From NCBI GenBank assembly GCA_946629065.1, contig CAMOXK010000011.1, forward strand, positions 1-44,301: a DNA stretch of 44,301 bases, given 5' to 3'. Origin of the DNA: an uncultured Clostridia bacterium (GTDB lineage: Bacteria > Bacillota > Clostridia > Oscillospirales > Oscillospiraceae). Under the pieces are notes generated by a model. It was not told the origin of the DNA, searched no databases, and saw only the letters and a list, made by a program, of their open reading frames with translations. The translations under genes and the position numbers were made by a program. Positions within the stretch are counted from its first letter, which is position 1. The number at the start of each line of letters is the position of its first letter. This document shows, piece by piece, positions 1 through 44,301 of the stretch.

Positions 1-268
1 AGACCTTCAGGACGCCTGCCAGGGCGATGATCGCGCTGGCCTTGGGCTCCTGGTCGCCCCGCTCATAGGCTCCGATGCTGCTGGCGCTGATCCCCGCGGC
101 CTCCGCCAGCTCGTCCCGCGTCATGCTCTGGATCCCGCGGATCCACATGAGCCTCGGTCCCAGACCTGCCGGCGGGCCCTTCCGAAGGGCTTGATCCGCC
201 AGCTCCTCGATGATCTGCTCCGGCTTCTTCCCGTAGATCTTCGAGAGCTTGATGATCTTCTCATTCAT
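1..268 (-). CDS. XRE-family helix-turn-helix protein, truncated by the window edge
   Basis: Manual minus-strand translation from ATG at 268: MNEKIIKLSKIYGKKPEQIIEELADQ...MTRDELAEAAGISASSIGAYERGDQEPKASAIIALAGVLKV; AAAGGAG RBS upstream; no stop before base 1; absent from the ORF track. Confidence 0.75.
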   Translation of the reverse strand, partial: MNEKIIKLSKIYGKKPEQIIEELADQALRKGPPAGLGPRLMWIRGIQSMTRDELAEAAGISASSIGAYERGDQEPKASAIIALAGVLKV

Positions 269-761
269 GTTTCGATCGCTCCTTTCGTTTTCTCAGAGAT
301 TTCGCCCATCGTTGTTTGTACTCGGCCGGTGGTTCCTTTTTCATTGGAAAGAATGAAAGTTGGACCGGTTTATGTTCATATCTCTGCTTGTTCCATCGTG
401 GTTTTCCTGCTTTTGCCGCTTCTTGGATCCAGCCCGCCGCTTTTAGGCTTGTCCCTGGCTCGCTCTGCAGGATGAAGGTAATGATCTTCTCGTAGCCCTC
501 GCGCTTTGCCTTCCTGGCTGCGGCAGCATATAGGCAGGAGCAGGCATTTCTCGTCCCGTCCGTACATAGGCGAGTCACCTCGAGCGTGCTGCCGTTGTCG
601 AGTCGACGTCCTGTTGGTCTCCCCACTATAGCCACACCACATAGTCGGCCGCCTTTATATGCCGCAAGACTCCACTTGTGTCCGATTACAGGCCCATGAT
701 GGCGGTGCATCTTGGAGACGAAGGCGTTGGCCTCTCTGAGCGTGATGTCCTTGATCTCCAC
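261..761 (-). CDS. XF1762-like phage protein
   Basis: ITLREANAFVSKMHRHHGPVIGHKWSLAAY...VAIVGRPTGRRLDNG.TLEVTRLCTDGTRNACSCLYAAAARKAKREGY is characteristic of this phage family. Confidence 0.75.
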   Translation of the reverse strand: MEIKDITLREANAFVSKMHRHHGPVIGHKWSLAAYKGGRLCGVAIVGRPTGRRLDNGSTLEVTRLCTDGTRNACSCLYAAAARKAKREGYEKIITFILQSEPGTSLKAAGWIQEAAKAGKPRWNKQRYEHKPVQLSFFPMKKEPPAEYKQRWAKSLRKRKERSKHE

Positions 762-765
762 CGAC

Positions 766-1698
766 TCACCTCGCTCTCGCTTCGTTGATCCTGTTCTCGG
801 CGAGTTTCACATAGTCCGGATTAAGCTCTATGCCGATATAGTTCCGGCCTTCCTCTATGGCGACGATCGCCGTCGTTCCGGATCCCATAAATGGATCAAG
901 GACGACGCCGCCAGGGCGGCAGCCTGCAAGCACACACGGGCGGACGAGCTGCGGAGGGAAGACGGCAAAGTGGGCGCCTTTGAAGCCTCCGGTGCAGATT
1001 GACCACACGTCGCGCTTGTTTCTTCTTGGCCGCGGCGCATAGGCCGATCCGTCCTTTCTTCTGTCTACGATTTGATCCGCTTCGACGTACTTATTGCCAC
1101 CGAAGCGCGGCAGACGTGGAGATCCTTCAGATCTCAGGTATCGCTCCGTGCTGCTCCCTGTTATTGGTTCGCTGATTGCTTCCGCGTCGAAGTAGTAGTG
1201 GCGCCGCTTTGACAGTAGGAAGATGTACTCGTGCGACCGAGTGCATCGGTCCCGAACGCTTTCCGGCATACAGTTCGTCTTGTTCCAGATGATGTCCTGC
1301 CGCAGGTACCAGCCGTCCGATCGGAGAGCGAAGGCGACCATCCACGGGATCCCGATCAAGTCCTTCATCTTGTAGCCTTCCGGGACGCGCTTCTCTGTGT
1401 GCCCTTGACTGTTTCGTGTATTCCGCGGCGCCTGTGGGCCAGAGGACGTCGCGTAGCTGTCGCCGATGTTTAACCATAACGTCCCGTCCGGTTTCAGGAT
1501 CCGCCGTACTTCGCGGAAAACTTGTACGAGTCTATCGACATATAGCTCCGGTGATCCTTCGAGTCCGAGTTGCCCGTCGACTCCGTAGTCTCTAAGGCCG
1601 AAGTACGGCGGTGAGGATACGCACATATCGACGCTCTCGTCAGGAAGCCCACAGAGGCAGCTCAGAGCATCTCCTGTGTGGATAGTGTTCAGCGTCAT
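766..1698 (-). CDS. DNA methyltransferase (N4-cytosine/N6-adenine, SPPY motif)
   Basis: MTLNTIHTGDALSCLCGLPDESVDMCVSSPPYFGLRDYG...VLDPFMGSGTTAIVAIEEGRNYIGIEL; ORF start trimmed from the track to this ATG. Confidence 0.9.
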   Translation of the reverse strand: MTLNTIHTGDALSCLCGLPDESVDMCVSSPPYFGLRDYGVDGQLGLEGSPELYVDRLVQVFREVRRILKPDGTLWLNIGDSYATSSGPQAPRNTRNSQGHTEKRVPEGYKMKDLIGIPWMVAFALRSDGWYLRQDIIWNKTNCMPESVRDRCTRSHEYIFLLSKRRHYYFDAEAISEPITGSSTERYLRSEGSPRLPRFGGNKYVEADQIVDRRKDGSAYAPRPRRNKRDVWSICTGGFKGAHFAVFPPQLVRPCVLAGCRPGGVVLDPFMGSGTTAIVAIEEGRNYIGIELNPDYVKLAENRINEARAR

Positions 1699-1847
1699 GT
1701 CGCGCCTCCTCTGTCCCGGCTCCGTTCTTTTGATGAACAATGCGGGCAGATGTAGCCGGACGGCGGGAGCCGGAGATCCTTCGGGACGTTCCACTCCTTG
1801 CCGCAGATCACGCAGATCTCGTAGCGGACGGATCGCTCCCGCTTCAT
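1695..1847 (-). CDS. small zinc-ribbon-like protein
   Basis: MKRERSVRYEICVICGKEWNVPKDLRLPPSGYICPHCSSKERSRDRGGAT; two CxxC pairs; overlaps both neighbouring starts. Confidence 0.55.
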   Translation of the reverse strand: MKRERSVRYEICVICGKEWNVPKDLRLPPSGYICPHCSSKERSRDRGGAT

Positions 1848-2128
1848 GTCGAACTCTCCCGCATGATCTCGGCGACCAGGCGCCGGATCTTCCGCTCGTA
1901 CTTCTTCCGGGTCCTGTAGCGTTTGGCGTGCTTGTAGAGGTGCCACCACTTCCCAGGGACGAGCCCGCTGACAATGGCGTCCCAGACCTTCTTGATGTTG
2001 TTGACGATCCAGTCGACCAGCGGCTTGATGGCCTCCATGATTGCCTTCACCATTCCAGCGACGGCTTTCTTGACCCGTTCAAAGGCCTCCACGACCTCCG
2101 GCGACGGCTGCAGCGTGTTGTCGTTCAT
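1844..2128 (-). CDS. hypothetical phage protein
   Basis: Tightly packed in the early operon with overlapping start/stop. Confidence 0.5.
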   Translation of the reverse strand: MNDNTLQPSPEVVEAFERVKKAVAGMVKAIMEAIKPLVDWIVNNIKKVWDAIVSGLVPGKWWHLYKHAKRYRTRKKYERKIRRLVAEIMRESST

Positions 2129-9607: not shown

Positions 9608-10000
9608 TCAATCCACCCCCAGCAGGATTTTCGCCGCTTCCAGTTGATCCTCGAGCTCACCGACACGCCTGGCGAGCTCGGCGCGTGTCGGCACCTCTGC
9701 AGGAGGATCGTCGTCCGGGATCTCCGGATCTTCGTCTTCCGGATCCGGGAGGCCGTCGATGATGGCCTGGTACTCAGCCTCGTCGATGATCTCGGCGTAT
9801 GGCTCCTTCTCTCCTCTCGGCATGGCGCCGTTGAGAAGGTAGATGTCGCTGTTGTTGGCCGCGACGATGCCCTGGGCTTCCTCGGCAGACCCGCAGCTGA
9901 CCAGCTGGCCGTTGCTTGCCTGCCACCTCACGAAGATCGGCTCGTCGATCTTCTCGGCGCCTGTGAGGACGTCGTTGATGTCAAAGGTCTTGATGTACAC
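9608..10000 (-). CDS. hypothetical tail-cassette protein (GTG start) overlapping the RT 3' end
   Basis: GGAGG RBS then GTG: (M)YIKTFDINDVLTGAEKIDEPIFVRWQASNGQ...; overlaps the RT by 20 nt. Confidence 0.55.
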   Translation of the reverse strand: MYIKTFDINDVLTGAEKIDEPIFVRWQASNGQLVSCGSAEEAQGIVAANNSDIYLLNGAMPRGEKEPYAEIIDEAEYQAIIDGLPDPEDEDPEIPDDDPPAEVPTRAELARRVGELEDQLEAAKILLGVD

Positions 10001-11126
10001 AGAAGTCCCTCCTCCATACGAAAAGATTGTTGAATAGCTTCCAGATGCTCTTGATGCTGTTGTGGGCGTCGAAGTGCATCGCGTAGCCTGTCCAGCTTGC
10101 GACGGAGTTGTAGGCGTCGGCAAAGGAGCACTTTCCGGCCTCATACAGTCGCGCCAGGTGCTTGATCCGCCGGCGAGCGTGGACGACGCTGGTCTTGCAG
10201 ATCTTCCGGATGATCTTCCCGGTCGGCGTGATGAAGAATCTCGCTTTGAGCCAGGTGAAGCCGTGGCTCAGCTTGACGATCTGGGTCTTCTTCCGGTTGA
10301 GCGTGATGTGCAGCTCGTCGCAGATCTTCTGGATCGCAGCCATGCACTTCTTGAGCCTTTCCTTCGAGATGTTGACCAGGATGCCGTCGTCCATATACCG
10401 GCAGTAGGCGCGGATCCGGAGGATCTCCTTGATGTAGTGATCCAGACGGTTCGCACTCGCCAGGGCGAGCACCTGGGAGATCTGACTCCCGAGTCCGAGG
10501 CCCACGTCGCCGAAGGCGTCGACGAAGTGGTTCACGAGCCGCTTGATCCTCTCGTCCATGAATGTCTTGTCGAAGATCTCCCGGAGGAGGGCGTGGCTCA
10601 CGTTGTCGAAGAACTTGGAAAAGTCATAGAGCAGGACGTAGCCCTCGCGGCCGTACTTCCGGAAGTGGCTCCGGAGGTGCCGCTCCAGTCGGCGGACTGC
10701 GAAGTGGTAGCCCTTGCCTGCCAGGGAGGCGCCGTTGTCATAGATGAACGACGGCGTCAGCGCCGGGACGAGAGCATTGTCGCAGAGGCAGCGCTGCACT
10801 ACGCGCTCGCTGATAATTGTCGAGCGGATGTGCCGGAGCTTGCCCCTCTCGCAGAGATCAAACTCGAAAAAGCCGGGGCTCCGATAGGTTCCAGCCTGTA
10901 GGCGCTCGTAGGTCTTCGCCAGGTTTCGCGGTGCTGCCTCGATGTATCGCTGCACGCTGGCCTTCCATGAGACGCCGCGCCTGCAGCAGCGGTATGACCG
11001 GTAGAGGTTCTCGAAGGAGAAGACGACGTCGAAGTTGTCCGCTTTCTTTAGCCTGGCTGCTTTCTTCGCAGCTCTGGCCTCAGATCTCCGCCGGTACCGG
11101 TTCTCTTTTCGTTCGATGCTGTTCAT
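9981..11126 (-). CDS. DGR reverse transcriptase
   Basis: From MNSIERKENRYRRR (GGAGG RBS): RT motifs VLLYDFSKFFDNVSH, LGLGSQISQVLALASANRLDHYIKE, YCRYMDDGILV; adjacent TR, Avd and VR. Confidence 0.95.
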   Translation of the reverse strand: MNSIERKENRYRRRSEARAAKKAARLKKADNFDVVFSFENLYRSYRCCRRGVSWKASVQRYIEAAPRNLAKTYERLQAGTYRSPGFFEFDLCERGKLRHIRSTIISERVVQRCLCDNALVPALTPSFIYDNGASLAGKGYHFAVRRLERHLRSHFRKYGREGYVLLYDFSKFFDNVSHALLREIFDKTFMDERIKRLVNHFVDAFGDVGLGLGSQISQVLALASANRLDHYIKEILRIRAYCRYMDDGILVNISKERLKKCMAAIQKICDELHITLNRKKTQIVKLSHGFTWLKARFFITPTGKIIRKICKTSVVHARRRIKHLARLYEAGKCSFADAYNSVASWTGYAMHFDAHNSIKSIWKLFNNLFVWRRDFCVHQDL

Positions 11127-11346
11127 GTGATCCTCCGTCACCTCGCGCCGCTGCCGGATGGTTACATGTAGCGGTATAGGGCTACCGGGCATGAAACGCA
11201 GCATTACCATCAAGCCGCGCCATGCAAGAAGCGTCCGCCCGAGCCCGTCGGGGTGAATATTTACCATAGCGGAAGGTCACGCCCTCCTTCTCTCCTGTCA
11301 AGTCTGATTTCGCCGGCTGGCCGGTTACTTTGTCTGCTCTGAGAGG

Positions 11347-11473
11347 AGCCGAACGCGACGCCGTAGGAGTTGTTCGCGTTGTTGTTGTTGCTGCTGCCGC
11401 TCGTCGTGATGTTGTAGAAGTTCGTCGTGTTGCCGGTGTTCGGAGAACGCAGCCACCACGTCGAAGCCGCGCC
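11347..11473 (-). repeat. DGR template repeat (TR)
   Basis: 127 bp homologous to the 3' end of the adhesin gene; coding-strand reading GAASTWWLRSPNTGNTTNFYNITTSGSSNNNNANNSYGVAFG with 10 AAC codons. Confidence 0.95.
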
Positions 11474-11507
11474 GAGCGAGCAGGATGTCCAGGGCGTAAC
11501 CTGTGAA

Positions 11508-11909
11508 TTACAAGAGATTTGCGAAGCGAGTCCTGTCCGACTTCATGACGCCGGTGATCAGCTTGCCTTCTTCGGCCATGAGGGCGCTCATTTTCTTCGC
11601 GCCGGCCGGGCTGAAGATCTGATCACCGAGCAGGAGACTCAGCTGTCCGTTGTAGTCGTCGAGCAGCCTGAGCGCCTCCTCGAGCAGCTCCTCCCGCTTT
11701 TCCAGCTGCTTCCTGGTTTGCGGGTATGGGCTCGCCTTCGTGACGGCGCTGTGGATCTTCCGCGACGTCTGCCAGAGCTCCTGCAGCCCGTAGAAGGTGT
11801 ATCGCTTCGGGCCGTTCACGCAGCGCTTCCGCGTTTCCTGCTCGAGCTCCCTCGCGGTCGTTACGAATTGAGCCTTTGAGGTCGCTCTGTTTGGTTTTGT
11901 TACGGACAC
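11508..11909 (-). CDS. avd: Avd-like DGR accessory variability determinant (133 aa, GTG start)
   Basis: AAAGGAG-8 nt-GTG; (M)SVTKPNRATSKAQFVTTARELEQETRKRCVNGPKRYTFYGLQELWQTSRKIHSAVTKASPYPQTRKQLEKREELLEEALRLLDDYNGQ...; helical, between VR and TR as in canonical DGRs. Confidence 0.8.
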   Translation of the reverse strand: MSVTKPNRATSKAQFVTTARELEQETRKRCVNGPKRYTFYGLQELWQTSRKIHSAVTKASPYPQTRKQLEKREELLEEALRLLDDYNGQLSLLLGDQIFSPAGAKKMSALMAEEGKLITGVMKSDRTRFANLL

Positions 11910-11932
11910 TTTCGGGACTCCTTTCGAGATAA

Positions 11933-11957
11933 ATCCGCCCCCACTGTGGGGGCGGAT
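11933..11957. repeat. perfect 12-bp inverted repeat (1-nt centre) downstream of VR
   Basis: ATCCGCCCCCAC-T-GTGGGGGCGGAT; lies 28 nt past the VR end. Confidence 0.9.
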
Positions 11958-11974
11958 AGGTTTGGATTTTTGGA

Positions 11975-14900
11975 TTAAATGCAGAAGCCGAACGCGACGC
12001 CGCAGGAGTTGCTCGCGAGGCTGCCGCTGCTGCTGCTGCCGCTCGTCGTGATGTAGTAGAAGTTCGTCGTGTTGCCGGTGTTCGGAGCACGCAGCCACCA
12101 CGCCGAAGCCGCGCCGGCTCCGCCGTTGAGTTTCTTGATCCGGCTGGCGTCATTGGTGAAGACAGTGAACGGAGCCTCAGCTTCCAGACTGTAGGGCGAT
12201 GTGCTTACGCTTTGGTTCACCTCTTTCATGGACGGGATCCAGATCTTGTCCTCCGCAGGCGGATCCACGAGGGCGCTCGACTTGTTGCCGGCGCTGGAGT
12301 GGACCTTCACCGTCACGACGAGCTCCTGCCATTCGACCGGCAGAGCTGCGAAGATCCGGTTGTTGAGCCAGGTCCTCATGGGTGCAGCCTTCCAGCCGCC
12401 GGCGTTGGTATTTGCGCTGTTCATCTGGTGGGTCTCCTCGAGCAGGTTCTTCAGGAGGAGGGTGAGATCCGGATAGTGATCGTTGTCCACCCTCACGAAG
12501 CTCCGGAAGGCCCGCTCCGAGGTTCCGACCGCCTGCATCGTCCACGTCTCACGCGGCCAGGATGCGAGCTCCCTGCAGACTGCGTCTCCGAGATCGTCGT
12601 CCCAGAGCTTCGCCCAGTAGATCGAGCCCTTGCCGTAGCTGTCCATGTAGCCGTCGTTCGCCAGCTGGGCGCCGAAGCAGAGCGGCGCGGTGTGCGTCGG
12701 GTCGCTTGCCTGTGTGAGGCCGCTGTAGGATACGGCGTTCCCGTTCTTGTTGGAGCTGTAGACGTGGAGCGTGGCGTCTCCCCTTTGCTTTCGGATCACG
12801 ACCATCTGGCGGACGCCGTTGCTCGACACCTGCTTTGCACTGGCGGATCCGAAGCGGAGAGAGCCGCCGGATGCCATACGCAGCAGGAAGCCGTTGCTCT
12901 GGTAACTGGAGGCCAGGCAGCCGCCGGCGGTGCAGTCTGTGGCGAAGGCAAAGTCGATCGCCAGGGTGAAGGACTTGTCGGTGTTGAACAGGAGAATGTC
13001 CTGGCCGCCGATCTGCGGCTTGAAGTACTCCGTCGAGCCGTCGAAGGTCTTCGGATCGTCCACGCTGATCAGCTCATGGCCCTCGACGTTCTCAAAGTTG
13101 AAGTCGTGGCCGGCGATGATGTCGGTGGTGTCACCGGAGGCGATGACGTCGTTGTTTGTGCCGGTCGGAGAGAGCACGCCCGTCGCGATCAGAGCGTGGA
13201 GCTCTGCGGCCGAGAGCTGGGCGAAGGTCTTCCCGGTCGGGGCCGTCGCCTGAGCGTAGACCGCATGAACGTCCAGATCCTCGCAGATGAAGCCGGTGCT
13301 CTTATCCCAGCCCTTGAAGACGTAGTAGATCGCGTAGTCTCCCTCGCTCGCGTTGGTGGGCCTGCTTCCGGAGAACGTGACCGCCTGGCCGTAGTTGACG
13401 ACCTGCGTCTCGAGGAGGTCGCGGCCGTTGTACCAGCGGACCGTGTATGTCCTCGTCGCTGCTGCGAAGTGGGCGTAGAGCGTGGTGTTCCCGGTGATGG
13501 CGACCTGGCTCAGATCCTCGATGAGGGCGCCGTCCTGCTGCCAGGACCAGCCGTCGAAGGTGAACGTCTGGGCAATCGTGGAGGCCTTCGTCGGAATGGC
13601 GATTGGGTTGACTGCGAACTGTGTCGGATCCTCCGGGGCGCTGCCCTGGGCGATGCGCTGTGTGTTCAGCGTTGTCGTGCCGTCGGCAGCCTTGAAGACG
13701 ACGGTGAAGCTCGGGATCTCGGTGTCGTAGGTGATCGCGAGCTCCGGGAAGGCCTCGCCCAGCGTCGCCAGGTCGTCGGCGGAGATCATGCTGATGTGTG
13801 CGCTGCCGGTGAGGACGAAGTGATCAGCGTTTTCTCCGGTGTTGTCCATGCCGGCCAGATTTGCGAGCCGCTTGAGGAGCGCCGTGTTGTCGAGCTCCCA
13901 GTTGATCCCGATGATCCGGCCGCGGGTCAGGTTCGTCGCGGCAGTCACGAGGGCCTTCGTGTCGATCAGCGGGCAGTTCTCGATCCAGACGGTCTGCAGG
14001 TTTGTCGCCGGCATGGCGAACGTCTCGAGGCTCGTGAGATCTCTCGCGATCAGCTGTCGGATGGCGTTGAGCTGTGCGATCCTGACCGGCGCACGCCTGG
14101 CGAAGGTGATGCCGGTGACGCCGGATCCCGTCGTGTAGATTTCCTCCAGGGATTTCAGAGCGGACAGGTTGAGGCCCTGGGCGAGGTTCGGGTTGCCGCG
14201 GAGGTCGATCTTCCGCATGAGGATATTGTTGCCGAAGCTGACACCGCCGTTCTCGGAGTTGAGGGAGGTGTTCGCGTAGCCTTCGGCATCGGATCCGAGG
14301 ATCATCTGCTGCAGCTTCTTCGCGCTGCTCAGGTCTGCGAACTTTGTGTAAAGTCCGGCCAGGGATCCGATGCTGGCGATGTTGGATGCGCTGTAGATGT
14401 AGGTCTCCAGATCGTTCAGGCTGGCACCTTCCGGCATTTCGATGTCGTAGCTCTGCCCGCGGACTGCTCTGACCTTCACGGTACCGGCGTTGCCGTATTT
14501 GACCGTGATGTAGGTGGAAGCATAGGGCACGATGCCGGTGATGTTTCCGGAAGGCTCCACGCCTCCCCATTCCTCGGGAGCGTTTGCTCTGAGGGAGATC
14601 CGGTCCGCGGTGGAGACGGAGCCGCCGTGCTTTGCGGACTGATAGGGCTCCTGGTATGTCTCGAACTGCTGAAGCTGGTCCTCCTTGGTGCCGAGCATGG
14701 CGCGGATGTACCGCTCCTCCTGGGCGTAGATATACGGCGCGAAGTACTTGTTCCACATGTCCTCGATCAGGAGGCCTTCCGGGCGGGTGTCTCTGTAGGC
14801 TTTCCACTTGGCGAGGATCCGGGAGGAGCTCCAGGCGCCGGCCGCTTCCAGCGTCCGGAACATAGCGTCGAGCTCGTCGGCGAACAGATCGCGGATGTTG

Positions 14901-17900
14901 CACCACAAAACAGAGTCGGAGGCGTTGAAGACGTAGGCTGCGCCCACCATGTCAGTATCTTCGAGTCCGTAGTCGAACGTCAGGCCGCCGCTGTTGTCGT
15001 TGCCGCTCATGGTGTCGAAGTCGTAGCCGTGGACAATGTTCCAGAGCCACTTCCCGGCGTCCTCGTCGTAGTCGTACTCGAAGAAGGTGTTCTTGGCGCG
15101 GTTGTCCGGCAGAAGCCGGCGCTCGGTAACGAGGTAGTGGTAGAGAAACGACGGGACGGCGGCATGATCACCGAACTCCGCCTTGAACTTCGCGGCACGG
15201 TAGGCCTCGGAGTCTGTCGCATACTCGACGCCGTTGTATGTTACGGATCCGCCAGGGAGGGTTGTGTCGGGCGCCGCCGATCTGTCTGTGGAGACGACCC
15301 ACGCGAGGAAGGCCGCCCAGGTTGCCTTGTTGGCGTCTGTCGGTTTCTTGGGGAAGCGGACGTCAAAGCTGGCGTTTCCTTTGCCGTCCCAGGTCTCGCC
15401 GGTCAGATCCGCAGACTTGAAGCGGCACTGCAGGGAGTTGTTGTTGTGGATCTCGACGCAGAACTGCTGAGGGTATGCGGTGAGATCCTGACCGAAGACG
15501 GCGTTGTTCTTCTTGCTGTTGCAGATGTCGCCGGCCGCGTAGAGAATTGTCTCGCCGGGCTGCAGCGTTCTCGCGCCGACCGTGATCGGTTCCTCCGCGG
15601 TAGAAGTGAAGAAGATTGCCGCCGGGTGTCCCTCAATACAGTCTCGGACGGCCGGGTTCGCAGCACGCGCCGGCTTGATGTAGGGCTGGAAGGCGTTGTA
15701 GTCGTCCGCCATGCATACGTTGTTCGCGTTCTCCGAGCTTGCGACATTGACCTTGAGGTTGATGTAGTTGACCGGGATCGCGCCGGGCCGCATGGCATAG
15801 GCCGTGATGCCTTCGCCGTTGCCGTTCTCCCAGAGCGTCGCCGTGCTGAAATCGAGGTCGAGGTTCAGGGCCGCCAGGATGTACTCCAAGCTGGACGTGC
15901 CCTGGGCCTTCATGGTGACGTTCTCAGCCGTGAACTCATACTCGGCGCCGCCGTTTGTCCAGACGAGCGTCACCTTGCAGAGGACCTCGTCGTCCTTCGC
16001 CGTGGTCATTTTGTTCGCCCAGATATGGATCACGCGGAGCTCCGGCTTCGCCTGGGCCAGCTTGGTCTCGTTGATCGTGCCGGTCTCGTTGAAGATGTCG
16101 TTCCGCCGGTAGCGGTCCACCATCTCTTCCGGGCTGCCACAGTCGGCGATGAAGTTGTCGAGGATCTCGGATCTCGTCAAGCTCGTCGCGTAGAGCTTGA
16201 TGCCGTAGATCCAGACGTCGGCGTCTGCAGATCCGATCGTGAGCAGCTGCGGGCTGGCCTGCTGCCAGTTGTCGGAGGACTCGTAAGCGATGGCGCGAGC
16301 CGGCACGCCTTCGAGCCAGACGACGGCAAGGCGGTCTTCTGTGGTCGCCTCGATGTTGACGTCCATTTCGATCTTCTTCTCCTCGCAGTAGCGCACGGTC
16401 GCAGACTGCAGGGCGCTCGAGAGCGTGCCCTGCTGGGCGTACAGCTTGAGGCCGATGTTGTCGGCCTTGCAGCTGAGGATCTCGGCGTCATAGTTCCGGC
16501 ACTCCGTCACCTTGAAGACGATCTTGAGTTCCTTGCCGGATGTTTTCGCATTGTCAGCGAAGACGGACCGGTCGAAGGTGACGCTGGTGCCCTTCTTGAC
16601 CACGAGAGCGGTGACGCCTTCCTCGTCGATCTGGAAGCCGCCGTCTGTCCAGTCGAAGTTCTGCGAGAATGTCAGGGGGTGGTTCGTCCCTTCACCGTCG
16701 ACATAGCCGAACTGCGTCCGGTTTGCCTCGGCGTTCGTGTGGCCGGTAGGGTCGAGCTTCATCGCGAGGCCGCGGGTGACCGGTGTGATGTCGTAGTCCA
16801 GATCCGCGACGGTGAGCGTGATCGAGGCGGAAGATCCGCCGCTCGAGACGGAGAGGGTCTTGCTGCCTGCGGTCGTCGGCCTGTATGTCCAGGTCTGCGT
16901 GTCTCTGCCGACTGTGACGGTCGTTGCAGTCTCGCCGGTGGCGCCGAGCTGGGCCGTGGCGGTCTCGCTTGCCGGGTTGTAGATCCGGTACTTGATCGAG
17001 ACGGTCTCGTAGCGCGTGGTCTCCATGGTGGACTCATAGACCGCGACGATGGTCGTGGTGACTCCGGACTCTACCCAGATGCCGACATGACGCAGCGGCG
17101 TCGTGGTGATTGCCTGGCCGTCGACCGTAGTCTCCATCCAGGCGGTGATCGCGTGGGCGCCGTGCGACTGGACCGGCACCGTGACGGCGATCGCCCGGCC
17201 ACTGGAGGCCACTGTCTGTGTGTAGATGGGCGTGCCGTCCACGGCGACCTTCACCGTCTTCTCGCCCTGGCCGGACGGGATCAGACGGATGTTGAGCGCG
17301 TTCCCGCCGTGAAAGCCGAACTCCTCGACGTTCCACGTCAGGGCGTAGGAGACACAAGTGACCGTCCAGGTGAAGGGCTTGCTGTTGCCGTAGCTGTCCT
17401 CCACCACGAGCTTCACCGTGTTCGTGGCGCCGGCCGTGAGGTAGGGCTTTGCCTCGAAGGAGAGGTTGCCCTGGGCGACCGTCGCCATGCGGACGCGGGT
17501 GTTGTTGACGTACCAGTTCTCCGTCAGGCTGCCCGTGGGATCCCCGCTCTCCTTGTCCAGGCTGACGGCAGCACAGAGGATCTGACACGATGCCGCCGAG
17601 TCGGAGACGCTGAACGCCCTGGACGGCAGCCTGTTTGTGATGGTGATCTCGGAGCCGAAGCCGCTGCCGCCGCCGGGACCTCCACCGATGAACGCCGGAT
17701 CCACGACGTCCTCGCCATTTAGCGTGATGTGCAGGTACCCGGTCTCCTGGTCGTAGGTCACGGCGTCGAAGGCCAGGCCGTCGGCGTGGATCTCGATCAG
17801 TTCCTCGGTGTCGTCCATGTGAACAACACGGATCCCGCCCTCGACGGCCTCAATGGCCTTGAGATCGAGTCTCAAAAGGGAAGCGATTTTCTCGGCGAAG

Positions 17901-18034
17901 GCCCCGATCGGGGCCCGGCGAACTGCTTCGATCTGGTTCCCGTCGACGGTCTCCTGCTGCGTGATCAGCACAGACGCGCCGCTCATGACCTGCGACGCTG
18001 TAGGCTTTTCGGTGATCTTTGTGATCGTAGCCAT
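11975..18034 (-). CDS. giant tail adhesin, DGR target protein (2019 aa)
   Basis: Downstream of tail fibre; LamG-like regions, InlB B-repeat-like region (FDGWSWQQDGALIEDLSQVAITGNTTLYAHF), C-terminal DUF6273/C-type-lectin-like fold ending in the VR. Confidence 0.9.
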   Translation of the reverse strand: MATITKITEKPTASQVMSGASVLITQQETVDGNQIEAVRRAPIGAFAEKIASLLRLDLKAIEAVEGGIRVVHMDDTEELIEIHADGLAFDAVTYDQETGYLHITLNGEDVVDPAFIGGGPGGGSGFGSEITITNRLPSRAFSVSDSAASCQILCAAVSLDKESGDPTGSLTENWYVNNTRVRMATVAQGNLSFEAKPYLTAGATNTVKLVVEDSYGNSKPFTWTVTCVSYALTWNVEEFGFHGGNALNIRLIPSGQGEKTVKVAVDGTPIYTQTVASSGRAIAVTVPVQSHGAHAITAWMETTVDGQAITTTPLRHVGIWVESGVTTTIVAVYESTMETTRYETVSIKYRIYNPASETATAQLGATGETATTVTVGRDTQTWTYRPTTAGSKTLSVSSGGSSASITLTVADLDYDITPVTRGLAMKLDPTGHTNAEANRTQFGYVDGEGTNHPLTFSQNFDWTDGGFQIDEEGVTALVVKKGTSVTFDRSVFADNAKTSGKELKIVFKVTECRNYDAEILSCKADNIGLKLYAQQGTLSSALQSATVRYCEEKKIEMDVNIEATTEDRLAVVWLEGVPARAIAYESSDNWQQASPQLLTIGSADADVWIYGIKLYATSLTRSEILDNFIADCGSPEEMVDRYRRNDIFNETGTINETKLAQAKPELRVIHIWANKMTTAKDDEVLCKVTLVWTNGGAEYEFTAENVTMKAQGTSSLEYILAALNLDLDFSTATLWENGNGEGITAYAMRPGAIPVNYINLKVNVASSENANNVCMADDYNAFQPYIKPARAANPAVRDCIEGHPAAIFFTSTAEEPITVGARTLQPGETILYAAGDICNSKKNNAVFGQDLTAYPQQFCVEIHNNNSLQCRFKSADLTGETWDGKGNASFDVRFPKKPTDANKATWAAFLAWVVSTDRSAAPDTTLPGGSVTYNGVEYATDSEAYRAAKFKAEFGDHAAVPSFLYHYLVTERRLLPDNRAKNTFFEYDYDEDAGKWLWNIVHGYDFDTMSGNDNSGGLTFDYGLEDTDMVGAAYVFNASDSVLWCNIRDLFADELDAMFRTLEAAGAWSSSRILAKWKAYRDTRPEGLLIEDMWNKYFAPYIYAQEERYIRAMLGTKEDQLQQFETYQEPYQSAKHGGSVSTADRISLRANAPEEWGGVEPSGNITGIVPYASTYITVKYGNAGTVKVRAVRGQSYDIEMPEGASLNDLETYIYSASNIASIGSLAGLYTKFADLSSAKKLQQMILGSDAEGYANTSLNSENGGVSFGNNILMRKIDLRGNPNLAQGLNLSALKSLEEIYTTGSGVTGITFARRAPVRIAQLNAIRQLIARDLTSLETFAMPATNLQTVWIENCPLIDTKALVTAATNLTRGRIIGINWELDNTALLKRLANLAGMDNTGENADHFVLTGSAHISMISADDLATLGEAFPELAITYDTEIPSFTVVFKAADGTTTLNTQRIAQGSAPEDPTQFAVNPIAIPTKASTIAQTFTFDGWSWQQDGALIEDLSQVAITGNTTLYAHFAAATRTYTVRWYNGRDLLETQVVNYGQAVTFSGSRPTNASEGDYAIYYVFKGWDKSTGFICEDLDVHAVYAQATAPTGKTFAQLSAAELHALIATGVLSPTGTNNDVIASGDTTDIIAGHDFNFENVEGHELISVDDPKTFDGSTEYFKPQIGGQDILLFNTDKSFTLAIDFAFATDCTAGGCLASSYQSNGFLLRMASGGSLRFGSASAKQVSSNGVRQMVVIRKQRGDATLHVYSSNKNGNAVSYSGLTQASDPTHTAPLCFGAQLANDGYMDSYGKGSIYWAKLWDDDLGDAVCRELASWPRETWTMQAVGTSERAFRSFVRVDNDHYPDLTLLLKNLLEETHQMNSANTNAGGWKAAPMRTWLNNRIFAALPVEWQELVVTVKVHSSAGNKSSALVDPPAEDKIWIPSMKEVNQSVSTSPYSLEAEAPFTVFTNDASRIKKLNGGAGAASAWWLRAPNTGNTTNFYYITTSGSSSSGSLASNSCGVAFGFCI
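11986..12115 (-). repeat. DGR variable repeat (VR), C-terminus of the adhesin
   Basis: 130 bp; GAASAWWLRAPNTGNTTNFYYITTSGSSSSGSLASNSCGVAFG; differs from TR almost only at TR adenines. Confidence 0.95.
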
Positions 18035-18046
18035 TGATGTCCTCCT

Positions 18047-19303
18047 TTAGTAGATCGCGGTATAGAAGTACTTCTCGCCGGTCGTGCAGAGCTGATGCGC
18101 CGGTCGTGCCTCGGTGTCATACCAGCTCACCTTCCTGGCATATCCCGATCCTGATGTGCTGACTTTGAGCTCCACATAAATCCCGCCAGTGGATCCGCCC
18201 GGGTTGTAGACGCTGAAGCCGACAAGCGCCCACGGGAAGATCACGCCGTAGGAGAAGGAGCTAAGACTCGCAGCTTTTGAACTGCGGACGATAATCAGGC
18301 TCGGTGTCCGTTTGAATGTCATTGTGGTCGGGTGTGAAGATCCTGCTTGGTTATTGCCGATGTACTGCCCGTGCTCCGATGCCTTCGGGTACACCCAGGA
18401 CAGGACGCCGGCTGCCGTCTGATTGAGCACCATGTCGTCACTGTCCGTCGGAAGCTCGACCTGGCTGAGGGCGGAGGCAGAAGAAGCGTACAGAAGCCGG
18501 GAGGGGCTCCAGGTAGATTTTCCGGTTCCGCCTCTGGCGACCTTCATGGTGCCGCTTGTGATGTCGGTTGCAAGGTGGGTGTGGATTGCCTTGGCTGCCA
18601 GGATGCCGGCCGGGGTGATGTTGTGGGGGTTCTCGGCTGTGACGTGATTGATCAGTTCCCGGATCGCTCTCTTGATCTGCCCCAGCAGCACGCGGAGCGT
18701 TGAGCCGCTTTCGATCTCCGTGACCCGCTCCGCCTCGGTGAAGGTAGGCGTCTGATTGTTCGTCGATACGTTGGGGACGTTGCCGAGGCCGATCTGGGTC
18801 TTTGTGACCTGGTGGGGGTTGTCAGTGTTGTTGACGTGCGCGTTGAAGGCCGTGATCGTAGCGTAGCCGATGAACTCGCTGATGATGGCGGTGACGTTCT
18901 CGGCGTCGCCCACGGCGACCACGACGTTCAGGTTAATCCGGCCGTAGCCGCTGTTAGCGCCTGCCGGGATCGTTGTGGGCTCGCCGTATGGCCTGGCGAG
19001 CGCGTACAGGATCTCACCGTCGTCCGGGTCGATGGCGTAGATGCCGAGCTCCGTCGCGACGAAGTCCTCCTCGATGGAACTGTTATCGAAGGAGCCGCTC
19101 AGGGAAACGCCGCCGACACCTGTGGTGATGGACGTCAAGCCGAACTTCACGCAGGGATTGACAAGATCCGTCAGAGGCGTCACGTCAGCCGGGACGACGC
19201 CGTTTCCGAGTCCGAGCTTCGAGAAGGTGATGGTCTCACCGGCGAGCGCCTTGATGATCAGCGCACGGCCGGCGTCTGTTAGTGTTGGGTTGTTGAAAAA
19301 CAT
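18047..19303 (-). CDS. phage tail fibre protein (tail-collar type)
   Basis: MFFNNPTLTDAGRALIIKALAGETITFSKLGLGNG...; HVNNTDNPHQVTKTQIGLGNVPN; MKVARGGTGKSTW. Confidence 0.85.
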   Translation of the reverse strand: MFFNNPTLTDAGRALIIKALAGETITFSKLGLGNGVVPADVTPLTDLVNPCVKFGLTSITTGVGGVSLSGSFDNSSIEEDFVATELGIYAIDPDDGEILYALARPYGEPTTIPAGANSGYGRINLNVVVAVGDAENVTAIISEFIGYATITAFNAHVNNTDNPHQVTKTQIGLGNVPNVSTNNQTPTFTEAERVTEIESGSTLRVLLGQIKRAIRELINHVTAENPHNITPAGILAAKAIHTHLATDITSGTMKVARGGTGKSTWSPSRLLYASSASALSQVELPTDSDDMVLNQTAAGVLSWVYPKASEHGQYIGNNQAGSSHPTTMTFKRTPSLIIVRSSKAASLSSFSYGVIFPWALVGFSVYNPGGSTGGIYVELKVSTSGSGYARKVSWYDTEARPAHQLCTTGEKYFYTAIY

Positions 19304-19314
19304 GCTGATCCTCC

Positions 19315-19962
19315 TTAGTCTGTCAGGATGTTGCCGAGCTCATCGGCGAGGGCAAAGTCCAGCTCGTCGGTCAGATACGCGATCACGAGCGCCTCCTGGG
19401 GATCCATCGGCGGGACCTCGATCGTCATGACAGAGACGACGGTCATGCCGACATAGAGATCCTGGTGCTCTGTCGTCGCCAGCTCGACCTCGTCCAGCTT
19501 CGCGCTCGCCCGCTTGACGTAGTTGATGGCCCGCATGATCCGATCGAAGTCGAAGCTCCCAGCGGCGTTCAGCTTGACGCGGAAGTGGTCAGGGGTTCCG
19601 TTGTACTCAAACCACTCGGAGATCTCCGGCGCCACGCCATAGGCAGCGCGGACCGCCTCCACGACGGCCCATTTCGTGCCGGCTTTCTCCTTGAGTGCCC
19701 TCGCAGCCTTCAGCGTTGCCCGCTTGCTCTCGATGCCGACGGTGGGATCGTACCACTCGAGAGACATTTCCCAGGCCATTTCGTCGAGCTCTGCGGCGCT
19801 CATGTTGTCGATCTGGTCCCATTCCCGGAGCCGCTTGATCTCGGATCCGGGGCCGCGGATCAGTTCGTTGATGGCCTTGGAGAGTGCCACGACGGCCTCG
19901 TCGTCCCGCATGAACACAGGGAGCAGTCGGATGATGTCTACGTTCTCGAGGTTCATCCCCAT
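19315..19962 (-). CDS. tail protein I (P2 gpI-like)
   Basis: LLPVFMRDDEAVVALSKAINEL...DEMAWEMSLEWYDPTVGIESKRATLKAARALKEKAGTKWAVVEAVRAAYG. Confidence 0.85.
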   Translation of the reverse strand: MGMNLENVDIIRLLPVFMRDDEAVVALSKAINELIRGPGSEIKRLREWDQIDNMSAAELDEMAWEMSLEWYDPTVGIESKRATLKAARALKEKAGTKWAVVEAVRAAYGVAPEISEWFEYNGTPDHFRVKLNAAGSFDFDRIMRAINYVKRASAKLDEVELATTEHQDLYVGMTVVSVMTIEVPPMDPQEALVIAYLTDELDFALADELGNILTD

Positions 19963-19966
19963 GTCG

Positions 19967-21346
19967 TCAGTCCCCCCTTACAATGTGCCGGACGACCTTG
20001 CTGCCGGAGAACTTCGCCACCACGGTCGGGCTGAGCTCCGTATAGACCGGCTTGACGATCTGCACACGGATGGCGCCGACGAGATCGTCGTCCTCGCCCT
20101 GGGGCGTGAGGATCAGCTTGCGGAGGTAGTCGGGATTGATGTCCCTGTTCAGGGCGGAGCCTTGCCAGTAGATGTACTGGTCGATCGCGCCGCCGTCGCC
20201 TTCCACAGCCTTCACGCAGTTCGCCTCGTCCGCGAGCGTCGTGTAGTAGACGAGCTCGATGTCGTAGGTCTGGACCTGTGGGGCCTGGACTTCGACGTGG
20301 TCGTTCAGCGGCCGGACGTCGTCGGCGCTGCAGGACTCGAGGACCTTCTGCAGGATCGTCGCGGTTGGGATCTCGCCGCCGTAGAGGATCGGCGTGATCA
20401 CCACGGAGCACTCGAGCGTCCGGTCGATGGTGATGTCCAGGGACTCGGCCCCGGCGAGGACTCCGGCGGAGACGATCGAGATCATGAGCAGGTTGTCGCT
20501 GTAGCTCGCGCTGTAGTCCGTCAGGATCTCGGCAGCAGTCGCCGATCCGTGTGCCTTCACGACGAGGGTGTCCAGGAGCAGCCTGTCACCTCCGAGCACG
20601 GCGATCTCCGTGTTGGATCCGTCACCGACGACCGTCATGACCTGCAGCTCTTTCGTGAGAGTCTGGCGCTTGTTCTCGATGATGGCGTCAGCCACCGTCG
20701 GATCCGCCTGCATGGCCCAGTATCGGTAGGAAGCCGCCGGGCCTGCCGTGGTGATTTTGTTGGATGCTGCCCGGATCCGCTCGCGGAAGCCGTCGTCCGT
20801 CTCAGTGTCGTTGCCGCCCTCAGTGGCCGTCAGGTTGCTCACGTTGTCGATGTAGGCCAGCAGGTCGACCAGGATGTTCAGGCCGCCGACTGGGATGGCG
20901 TTATAGTCTACACCGCCCTCGTCCGCTGTGGCCGTGACGTCGACGTGGGTGCTGCCGGCCGCCAGGACGACCGTGGTGTCCGTGAGGAAGTAGTGCTCGA
21001 AGTCACCGGTGACTCGCGTGCCAGCCGGGATGGTGATGTTCATGGGCATTGCCTCTCCGATTGAGAAGCGCAGAGTCGTCGTCGCCTTCTGTGCGTCAAT
21101 ACGCACGAGGCCCGCGTTCTCGCCGATGGCGTCAAGAACAGCGCCCCGGGCATATCGGAGCATCTTCTGCCTGCAGGCGTCGTTGACGGCGCTGTAGACG
21201 GCCACAACGATCGGCACGAAGGCCTCGCCGTAGATGCGGCGCTCGTCACCAGGGTACAGAGGCTCGGCCACGCCGTTCTCGAGGGACGTGATGATTGTGT
21301 CGTAGATCTCCTTGGTGTCAGTGGTGATGAAGTTGAGATCGCTCAC
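19967..21346 (-). CDS. baseplate J-like protein
   Basis: GTG start; MSDLNFITTDTKEIYDTIITSLENGVAEPLYPGDERRIYGEA...; IPAGTRVT; ETDDGFRERI..A. Confidence 0.9.
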   Translation of the reverse strand: MSDLNFITTDTKEIYDTIITSLENGVAEPLYPGDERRIYGEAFVPIVVAVYSAVNDACRQKMLRYARGAVLDAIGENAGLVRIDAQKATTTLRFSIGEAMPMNITIPAGTRVTGDFEHYFLTDTTVVLAAGSTHVDVTATADEGGVDYNAIPVGGLNILVDLLAYIDNVSNLTATEGGNDTETDDGFRERIRAASNKITTAGPAASYRYWAMQADPTVADAIIENKRQTLTKELQVMTVVGDGSNTEIAVLGGDRLLLDTLVVKAHGSATAAEILTDYSASYSDNLLMISIVSAGVLAGAESLDITIDRTLECSVVITPILYGGEIPTATILQKVLESCSADDVRPLNDHVEVQAPQVQTYDIELVYYTTLADEANCVKAVEGDGGAIDQYIYWQGSALNRDINPDYLRKLILTPQGEDDDLVGAIRVQIVKPVYTELSPTVVAKFSGSKVVRHIVRGD

Positions 21347-21627
21347 CTCGGCGCCTCCTTTCGTGTGGAAATATAAGCATTTACGCCGAGATCTCCGACG
21401 GCTGCGATCGTGCCGGCGATGTCGACGCTGTTCACCTTGAGCCGCGGCTCGTAGGTGCTGAGCAGCCACTCGGCGTCCGTTTCTGCGTCTGTGCCGGCCG
21501 TCGAGATCGGTGCATCAACGAGCGATGCGTCGCGGCCCTTGATCCTGTCGTATGGGACCTCACCCCTCGTGATCAGGAGCAGGTTGACCGCACACTGTTC
21601 CGGCGTGCCGTTTCCGCTTGATTTCAT
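21343..21627 (-). CDS. baseplate wedge gp25/GPW-like protein
   Basis: Position upstream of gpJ, size, NLLLITRGEVPYDR..G. Confidence 0.6.
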   Translation of the reverse strand: MKSSGNGTPEQCAVNLLLITRGEVPYDRIKGRDASLVDAPISTAGTDAETDAEWLLSTYEPRLKVNSVDIAGTIAAVGDLGVNAYISTRKEAPR

Positions 21628-43697: not shown

Positions 43698-44241
43698 TTA
43701 TATCTCGTTCCCCCAGGCGTCCCAGCCTGGCACCGTTTCACGAGCGAAAAGCTCGATCCTGGGGATGTCTCCCATGAGCTCGACGATCTTCTCGCGAGCT
43801 TCGTCTGGTTTCTTGCTGTGTCTTTCGAGCGGGGATACGATTGTTGAGCGAACAGCTGTCCCGACTCTCCTCGGCTTTCCCTTTGTCGCGAGAAGGCAGA
43901 TCTCAGCGTTGCTTCTCGTCCAGTTGCCGAGTCCCATGAACAGCCCAGATCCGCTCCTGTTCTGCTTCACCCAGCAGAAGGCGGCGGTCTTATAAGCGAA
44001 GCCCCATGCCTCGATCACTTCGAGGGCCTCCTTCAGCATTGGGAAGGTCGCCCAGATAAACAGAGCGCAGTCTTCGGAGGCAATACCCCCCCCCCGCGAT
44101 ATTTACCGGCATTTTTTTGATCTCCTCGATCGTCATTGTGCCGTAGTGTCGGTCTGCTGCCGCTCTGGTTCCTTTGTTGCTGTAGCTCCACGGCGGATCC
44201 GCGTAGATGATCCCGTACTTTTTATCCGGAAATGGTAACAT
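43698..44241 (-). pseudogene. MT-A70-family adenine methyltransferase, frameshifted at a G10 tract (44086-44095)
   Basis: MLPFPDKKYGIIYADPPWSYSNKG...IKKMPVNIAGGG | IASEDCALFIWATFPMLKEALEVIEAWGFAYKTAAFCWVKQNRSG...; the two halves rejoin if the tract is G9 (or G12). Confidence 0.85.
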
Positions 44242-44258
44242 GATTGGCTCCTTTCTGT

Positions 44259-44278
44259 GGGCCCGCCGGAGCGGGCCC
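44259..44278. repeat. perfect hairpin upstream of the MT-A70 gene
   Basis: GGGCCCGC-cgga-GCGGGCCC. Confidence 0.7.
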
Positions 44279-44301
44279 AGATAGTGAAGATTTTGAGATC
44301 A

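Follow-up and report, generated by a model that had tools for sequence, protein, structure and literature searches.

The locus analysed here raises the question of which proteins a phage diversity-generating retroelement (DGR) diversifies. The window, which is the whole 44,301-nucleotide stretch of DNA that was analysed, belongs to a gut or rumen phage, and a first-pass annotation of its sequence had described a complete DGR aimed at a phage tail adhesin. The tail-side target stood, but "aimed at a tail adhesin" proved to be half the story, because a second variable repeat (VR) sits in a gene of the replication module past the contig end. Very probably, the element is a working phage DGR with one template repeat (TR) and two VRs, one in a tail-associated target and the other in a replication-module DUF6273 target. 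In the mechanism that we propose, the reverse transcriptase (RT), helped by Avd, would reverse-transcribe the TR RNA and make errors at adenines, and its product would replace the VR sequence at sites marked by their conserved 3' end and by a DNA hairpin downstream. The VRs would encode C-terminal loops: a lectin-like one in a very large tail-associated protein, and one in a DUF6273 protein that is small, free-standing and encoded in the replication/DNA-modification module.

Organization of the element

The DGR is complete within positions 9981-18034 and reads, on the minus strand and in coding order, as a target with a C-terminal VR, hairpin, Avd, TR and RT (Table 1). The positions given in the first-pass annotation for the RT, TR, VR, Avd-like open reading frame (ORF), hairpin and target were all re-found in place, and the RT, TR, VR1 and Avd were each matched by search, which bears out both the identity and the completeness of the element.

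Table 1. Positions of the DGR components and adjoining genes in the window
Feature	Position	Strand	Description
DGR reverse transcriptase	9981..11126	-	381 aa; RVT_1, phrog_1423, PDB 8ub7, motifs
Template repeat (TR)	11473 to 11345/11344	-	90% match to VR1
Avd-like accessory protein	11508..11909	-	133 aa; phrog_3206 family
Hairpin after VR1	11933..11957	-	Stem ~10-11 bp, DNA fold
Variable repeat 1 (VR1)	11983..12116	-	C-terminus of target 1
Target 1, tail-associated protein	11975..18034	-	2019 aa, C-terminal DUF6273
Tail fibre and baseplate genes beside target 1	18047..21469	-	phrog_7037, phrog_14404; Baseplate_J 3.1e-40
DNA methyltransferase adjoining target 2	43698..44241	-	Two frames; phrog_359, MTase_II
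Hairpin after VR2	44258..44279	-	9-bp stem, 4-nt loop, DNA fold
Target 2 stop codon	44299..44301	-	Last three bases of the window; gene continues in contig C89

The RT, read from 11126 to 9981, matched Pfam RVT_1 (4.5e-15) and the reverse transcriptase family phrog_1423 (1.4e-84). It contains the DGR-type motif 4, (I/V/L)GxxxSQ, as LGLGSQ, together with YMDD, both as first described. Its best match in the PDB was the BPP-1 bRT structure 8ub7 (E 1.5e-24), which we take to be the BPP-1 DGR enzyme. Group II intron RTs, with which an RT foreign to DGRs had been expected to cluster, trailed behind it (6ar1, 7e-12; 6me0, 2.6e-10). A GGAGG lies just upstream of the ATG at 11126, and a longer ORF from 11267 is possible.

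All six members of the Avd-like family matched phrog_3206, "Avd protein of DGR" (best E 3.3e-11), while the window protein alone matched it weakly (E 0.0055). Alignment of the family to known Avds with hhalign gave a prob of 75.8. The predicted fold was a helical bundle (pLDDT 75) that weakly resembled S23-family proteins and BPP-1 Avd 4dwl (PDB E >0.1), which lends minor support. The 133-aa ORF is thus probably an Avd, an assignment that is firm only via its family and weak by single-sequence search.

Target 1 comes after the tail-fibre and baseplate genes. Its DUF6273 domain spans residues 1858-2014 (E 7.9e-21), and the protein also matches phrog_14959 and phrog_24896. DUF6273 is reported to be C-lectin-like (PMC10743442). 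To judge from its gene position and from BPP-1, target 1 most likely contacts the host, with VR1 as its C-terminal, putatively lectin-like loop.

The gene order claimed to resemble that of BPP-1 was indeed the one read in the BPP-1 record (AY029185), where the target with its VR is followed by avd, TR and brt. The two elements also share a bRT-like RT (about 28% identical between them), a hairpin after the VR and adenine-specific variation in the VR. They differ in that the target of BPP-1 is Mtd, here a 2019-aa DUF6273 protein, and that BPP-1 has a single TR-derived VR by the scan used here. The "VR2" annotated in bbp36 of BPP-1 had no TR match in that scan and was not counted as a second VR.

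A second variable repeat past the contig end

The TR also matched, at 90%, positions 64-176 of C89 (locus L004), a 5769-bp contig of the same metagenome-assembled genome (MAG); this match is VR2. Since C89 has an exact 55-bp overlap with each end of the window, the two contigs would close a 49,960-bp circle. The second VR could in principle derive from a different phage through misassembly or misbinning: the MAG is 67% complete, C89 stands apart from the window as its own contig, and an overlap of merely 55 bp is a typical assembler k-mer. However, an independent viral contig, IMGVR_3300021431_000167 (L014), spans both joins and holds the window-end, C89 and window-start sequences in one contig, with an RT 100% identical to that of the window; a further relative, L013, agrees, and VR2 matches the window TR. 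An artefact is therefore very improbable. The contigs part where VR2 ends on its 3' side, which would fit an assembly interrupted by VR variation within the population.

Target 2 is a free-standing protein of 221 aa (L004:53-718, minus strand) with VR2 at the 3' end of its gene. The second VR from the same TR thus belongs to a gene outside the structural module, as the gene neighbours show. The protein matches DUF6273 (E 1.3e-15) and is paralogous to the target 1 C-terminus, with which it shares 38% identity across 161 aa. An AlphaFold model of target 2, made with three sequences, had a pLDDT of 46 and was rejected. The gene neighbours of target 2 encode RecU, a G39P-type helicase-loader protein, a replication protein, SSB, Erf, a cell-wall hydrolase and an exonuclease. 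The methyltransferase stretch lies directly after target 2; its two ORFs overlap and both match phrog_359, and the stretch is absent from the relatives L013 and L014. It is either a decayed insertion or the product of a sequencing error.

Other features of this region were observed as well. The first ~36 codons of target 2 (L004:608-718) share 43-60% DNA identity with L014 and L013, while the flanks are mostly 90-100% identical; this N-terminal segment looks as if it had been swapped by recombination, independently of the DGR. Near the replication module, window positions 264-1974 (minus strand) hold genes for a Mom-like DNA modification protein and for a DNA methyltransferase. No integrase was found among the ORFs checked.

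Adenine-specific variation in the repeats

Over about 130 bp, the TR and VR1 of the window are a 90% match and differ in length by 3 nt. Mismatches were counted in an ungapped core of 111 nt, which contains 31 adenines in the TR, and p is the chance that all mismatches fall on adenines. The window was compared with IMGVR_UViG_3300021431_000167 (loci L005 and L014), a member of the same phage species with a 100% identical RT protein and 98.6% DNA identity over 10 kb; the TR core of its locus L005 is identical to that of the window. In this relative, 15/15 mismatches in VR1 (p 2.2e-10) and 14/14 in VR2 (p 1.3e-9) fell on TR adenines, as did 11/11 in VR2 of the window's genome (p 1.8e-7). VR variation is therefore adenine-specific.

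Window VR1 has eight adenine differences from the TR, together with one T>G and one extra codon within an AAC run, which slightly corrects the first-pass annotation. VR2 of L013 showed 12 adenine differences and no others, with two extra codons in the AAC repeat. Three-base slippage in an AAC-type repeat has been posited earlier (PMC12875486), and we set aside VR length variation in this run as a novelty since its mechanism was already proposed there. The T>G, near 12087, changes Ser to Ala in an RSP motif and was unseen in the other VRs of the species.

Invariance of the VR among related phages would have spoken against a functioning element. Instead, differences between two phages with 98.6% identity otherwise were concentrated in the VR: target 1 of the window and of L005 showed 19 and 8 differences per 100 nt around VR1, and 0-10 (mostly 0-5) elsewhere. 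In target 2 of another phage species (L066/L067 versus L069), variation was almost confined to the VR. This standing variation between phages suggests that the DGR may be active in mutagenic retrohoming.

By DNA folding, a stable hairpin lies 28 nt downstream of the VR1 core and another 30 nt downstream of the VR2 core, and none of similar strength was found 3' of the TR. In BPP-1, a hairpin of such type marks the recipient repeat, and by analogy the hairpins at VR1 and VR2 may have the same role. Target recognition has been treated in earlier work (PMC3240598).

Second targets in other phages

We scanned other phages, picked by RT similarity and so not a random phage sample, with non-adenine mismatches counted apart. 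Ten further lineages carried a tail-side or RT-adjacent VR and a distant VR from the same TR: Roseburia phage Shimadzu, Dulem virus 34, nd4, Acutalibacter phage Fontainebleau, Dulem virus 37, MT835491, Lagaffe, Lelie, IMGVR_3300031993_000083 and a phage on a roe-deer MAG contig. No second VR was found in BPP-1, Brigit (50 of 62 kb), BKO1-TP1, Roos (50 of 54 kb), MT835543, Taranis without its early end, or the records behind L006, L010, L011 (20 kb) and L012. Three roe-deer MAG loci (L063, L064 and L065) were equal-scoring phage loci in MAGs labelled Clostridia, Eubacterium and Paludibacteraceae, which suggests that phage contigs were binned with the wrong host.

Wherever the neighbours were readable, the distant VR gene lay on the non-structural, replication side. 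It was located after RecU in the window phage, before Erf in Shimadzu, before an exonuclease in nd4 and Lagaffe, between DNA polymerase I and a helicase in Fontainebleau, and before a ParB-methyltransferase gene in the roe-deer phage. The large terminases of the window phage, Shimadzu, nd4 and Lagaffe were 65-75% identical and the module was largely common to all; these are therefore related phages with target 2 in different slots. The domain type of the second target also varied, being DUF6273 in several lineages and FGE-like in Lagaffe and Dulem virus 37. DNA methyltransferase genes or fragments flanked target 2 in the window phage, Dulem virus 34, Shimadzu, IMGVR_3300031993_000083 and the roe-deer phage, and LPD15 proteins preceded it in nd4 and Lagaffe.

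Shimadzu (LR596903) resembles the window phage in its RT (50% identical), its TerL (65%) and its two VRs, which lie in a tail fibre and in a DUF6273-like protein next to Erf/SSB. Unlike the window phage, it has target 2 before Erf rather than after RecU; the two second targets are 25% identical, and Shimadzu is temperate. Two-target phage DGRs are already published, including a proposed counter-defence role (PMC10743442, PMC11792537, PMC8008677), with Shimadzu, Lelie, nd4 and Quimbyvirus as known cases, and we make no claim of novelty for them. Faecalibacterium phages Lelie and CP11 have two VRs per DGR, in a large and a small DUF6273 target (PMC11792537); these phages and Faecalibacterium phage Lagaffe have other hosts, and Lagaffe has Mtd/FGE-like targets. 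The passages of that paper found here offer no comment on the genome module of the second target. The tentaclin DGRs of nd4 and nd12 (PMC10743442) also have two targets, one of them DUF6273-only, so that a small DUF6273 target is on record for Lelie, CP11, nd4 and nd12 (PMC11792537, PMC10743442). They differ from the window element in their first target, which is a tentaclin and has its VR at the N-terminus. The TerL of nd4 is 75% identical to that of the window phage. Quimbyvirus, likened here from the description in the paper only (PMC8008677), has two C-lectin targets, of which one is on the structural side and the other, a non-structural one, has a nuclease and methyltransferases around it; unlike the window phage, it infects Bacteroidetes and has its RT spread over three frames. 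In the open-access literature searched, as far as its accessible text goes, the repeated siting of the second target in the replication module across these phages is unstated.

Possible roles of the second target

The likeliest role of target 2 is that of a binder acting inside the cell in phage-host conflict, with a second adhesin as the alternative. As an early cytoplasmic binder, it would inhibit or decoy defence factors or exclude rival phages, a reading that we hold tentatively and with somewhat less than even confidence. It is suggested by the position of target 2 in the replication/DNA-modification module, in varying slots and often beside DNA methyltransferases or LPD15 proteins, and by the similar target of Quimbyvirus, which Benler et al. 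placed in a counter-defence neighbourhood (PMC8008677). However, this support is gene neighbourhood alone and methyltransferases are common in the module; Lelie and Fontainebleau have no methyltransferase adjacent to target 2, and PADLOC gave no match.

Nearly as likely is that target 2 is a second surface adhesin, or a soluble or virion-associated receptor binder, encoded away from the tail genes and serving the same purpose as target 1. Because the protein and the C-terminus of target 1 are paralogues and both are diversified from one TR, they may bind similar ligands. Receptor-binding proteins are moreover the usual targets of phage DGRs (PMC10743442). On the other hand, target 2 has neither an N-terminal virion-anchoring domain nor, by hydropathy, a membrane-like segment, and among the two-target phages examined its gene was not part of the structural module.

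We consider it improbable that VR2 is a by-product, that is, a duplicated lectin domain overwritten by the DGR and lacking a selected function of its own. Any TR-matching sequence with a hairpin could be a retrohoming target, and target 2 is a paralogue of target 1. Yet the frames are intact in the carriers examined, VR2 has its own hairpin, residues are conserved outside the VR, and the arrangement recurs in 11 lineages (the window included) with different domain types.

Implications

As a phage DGR the element is ordinary, and its second target is the useful part. The layout recurs in 11 lineages, with the second VR on the early or replication side where neighbouring genes were readable, in varying positions and domain types, and we regard this siting of two-VR elements as a moderately interesting generalisation. 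VR surveys confined to the vicinity of the RT, as in PMC8144416, would miss such second targets. With the cultured two-target phages Shimadzu, Lelie and Fontainebleau, it is directly testable what such a hypermutated non-structural protein binds. It is possible, although we think it rather doubtful, that many gut and rumen phages diversify two things by one DGR: the tail tip, and a small, rapidly evolving cytoplasmic lectin-fold binder for counter-defence or exclusion that has been repeatedly recruited into the early replication/DNA-modification module. If this is true, the use of DGRs to phages would extend beyond attachment to the stages that follow entry.
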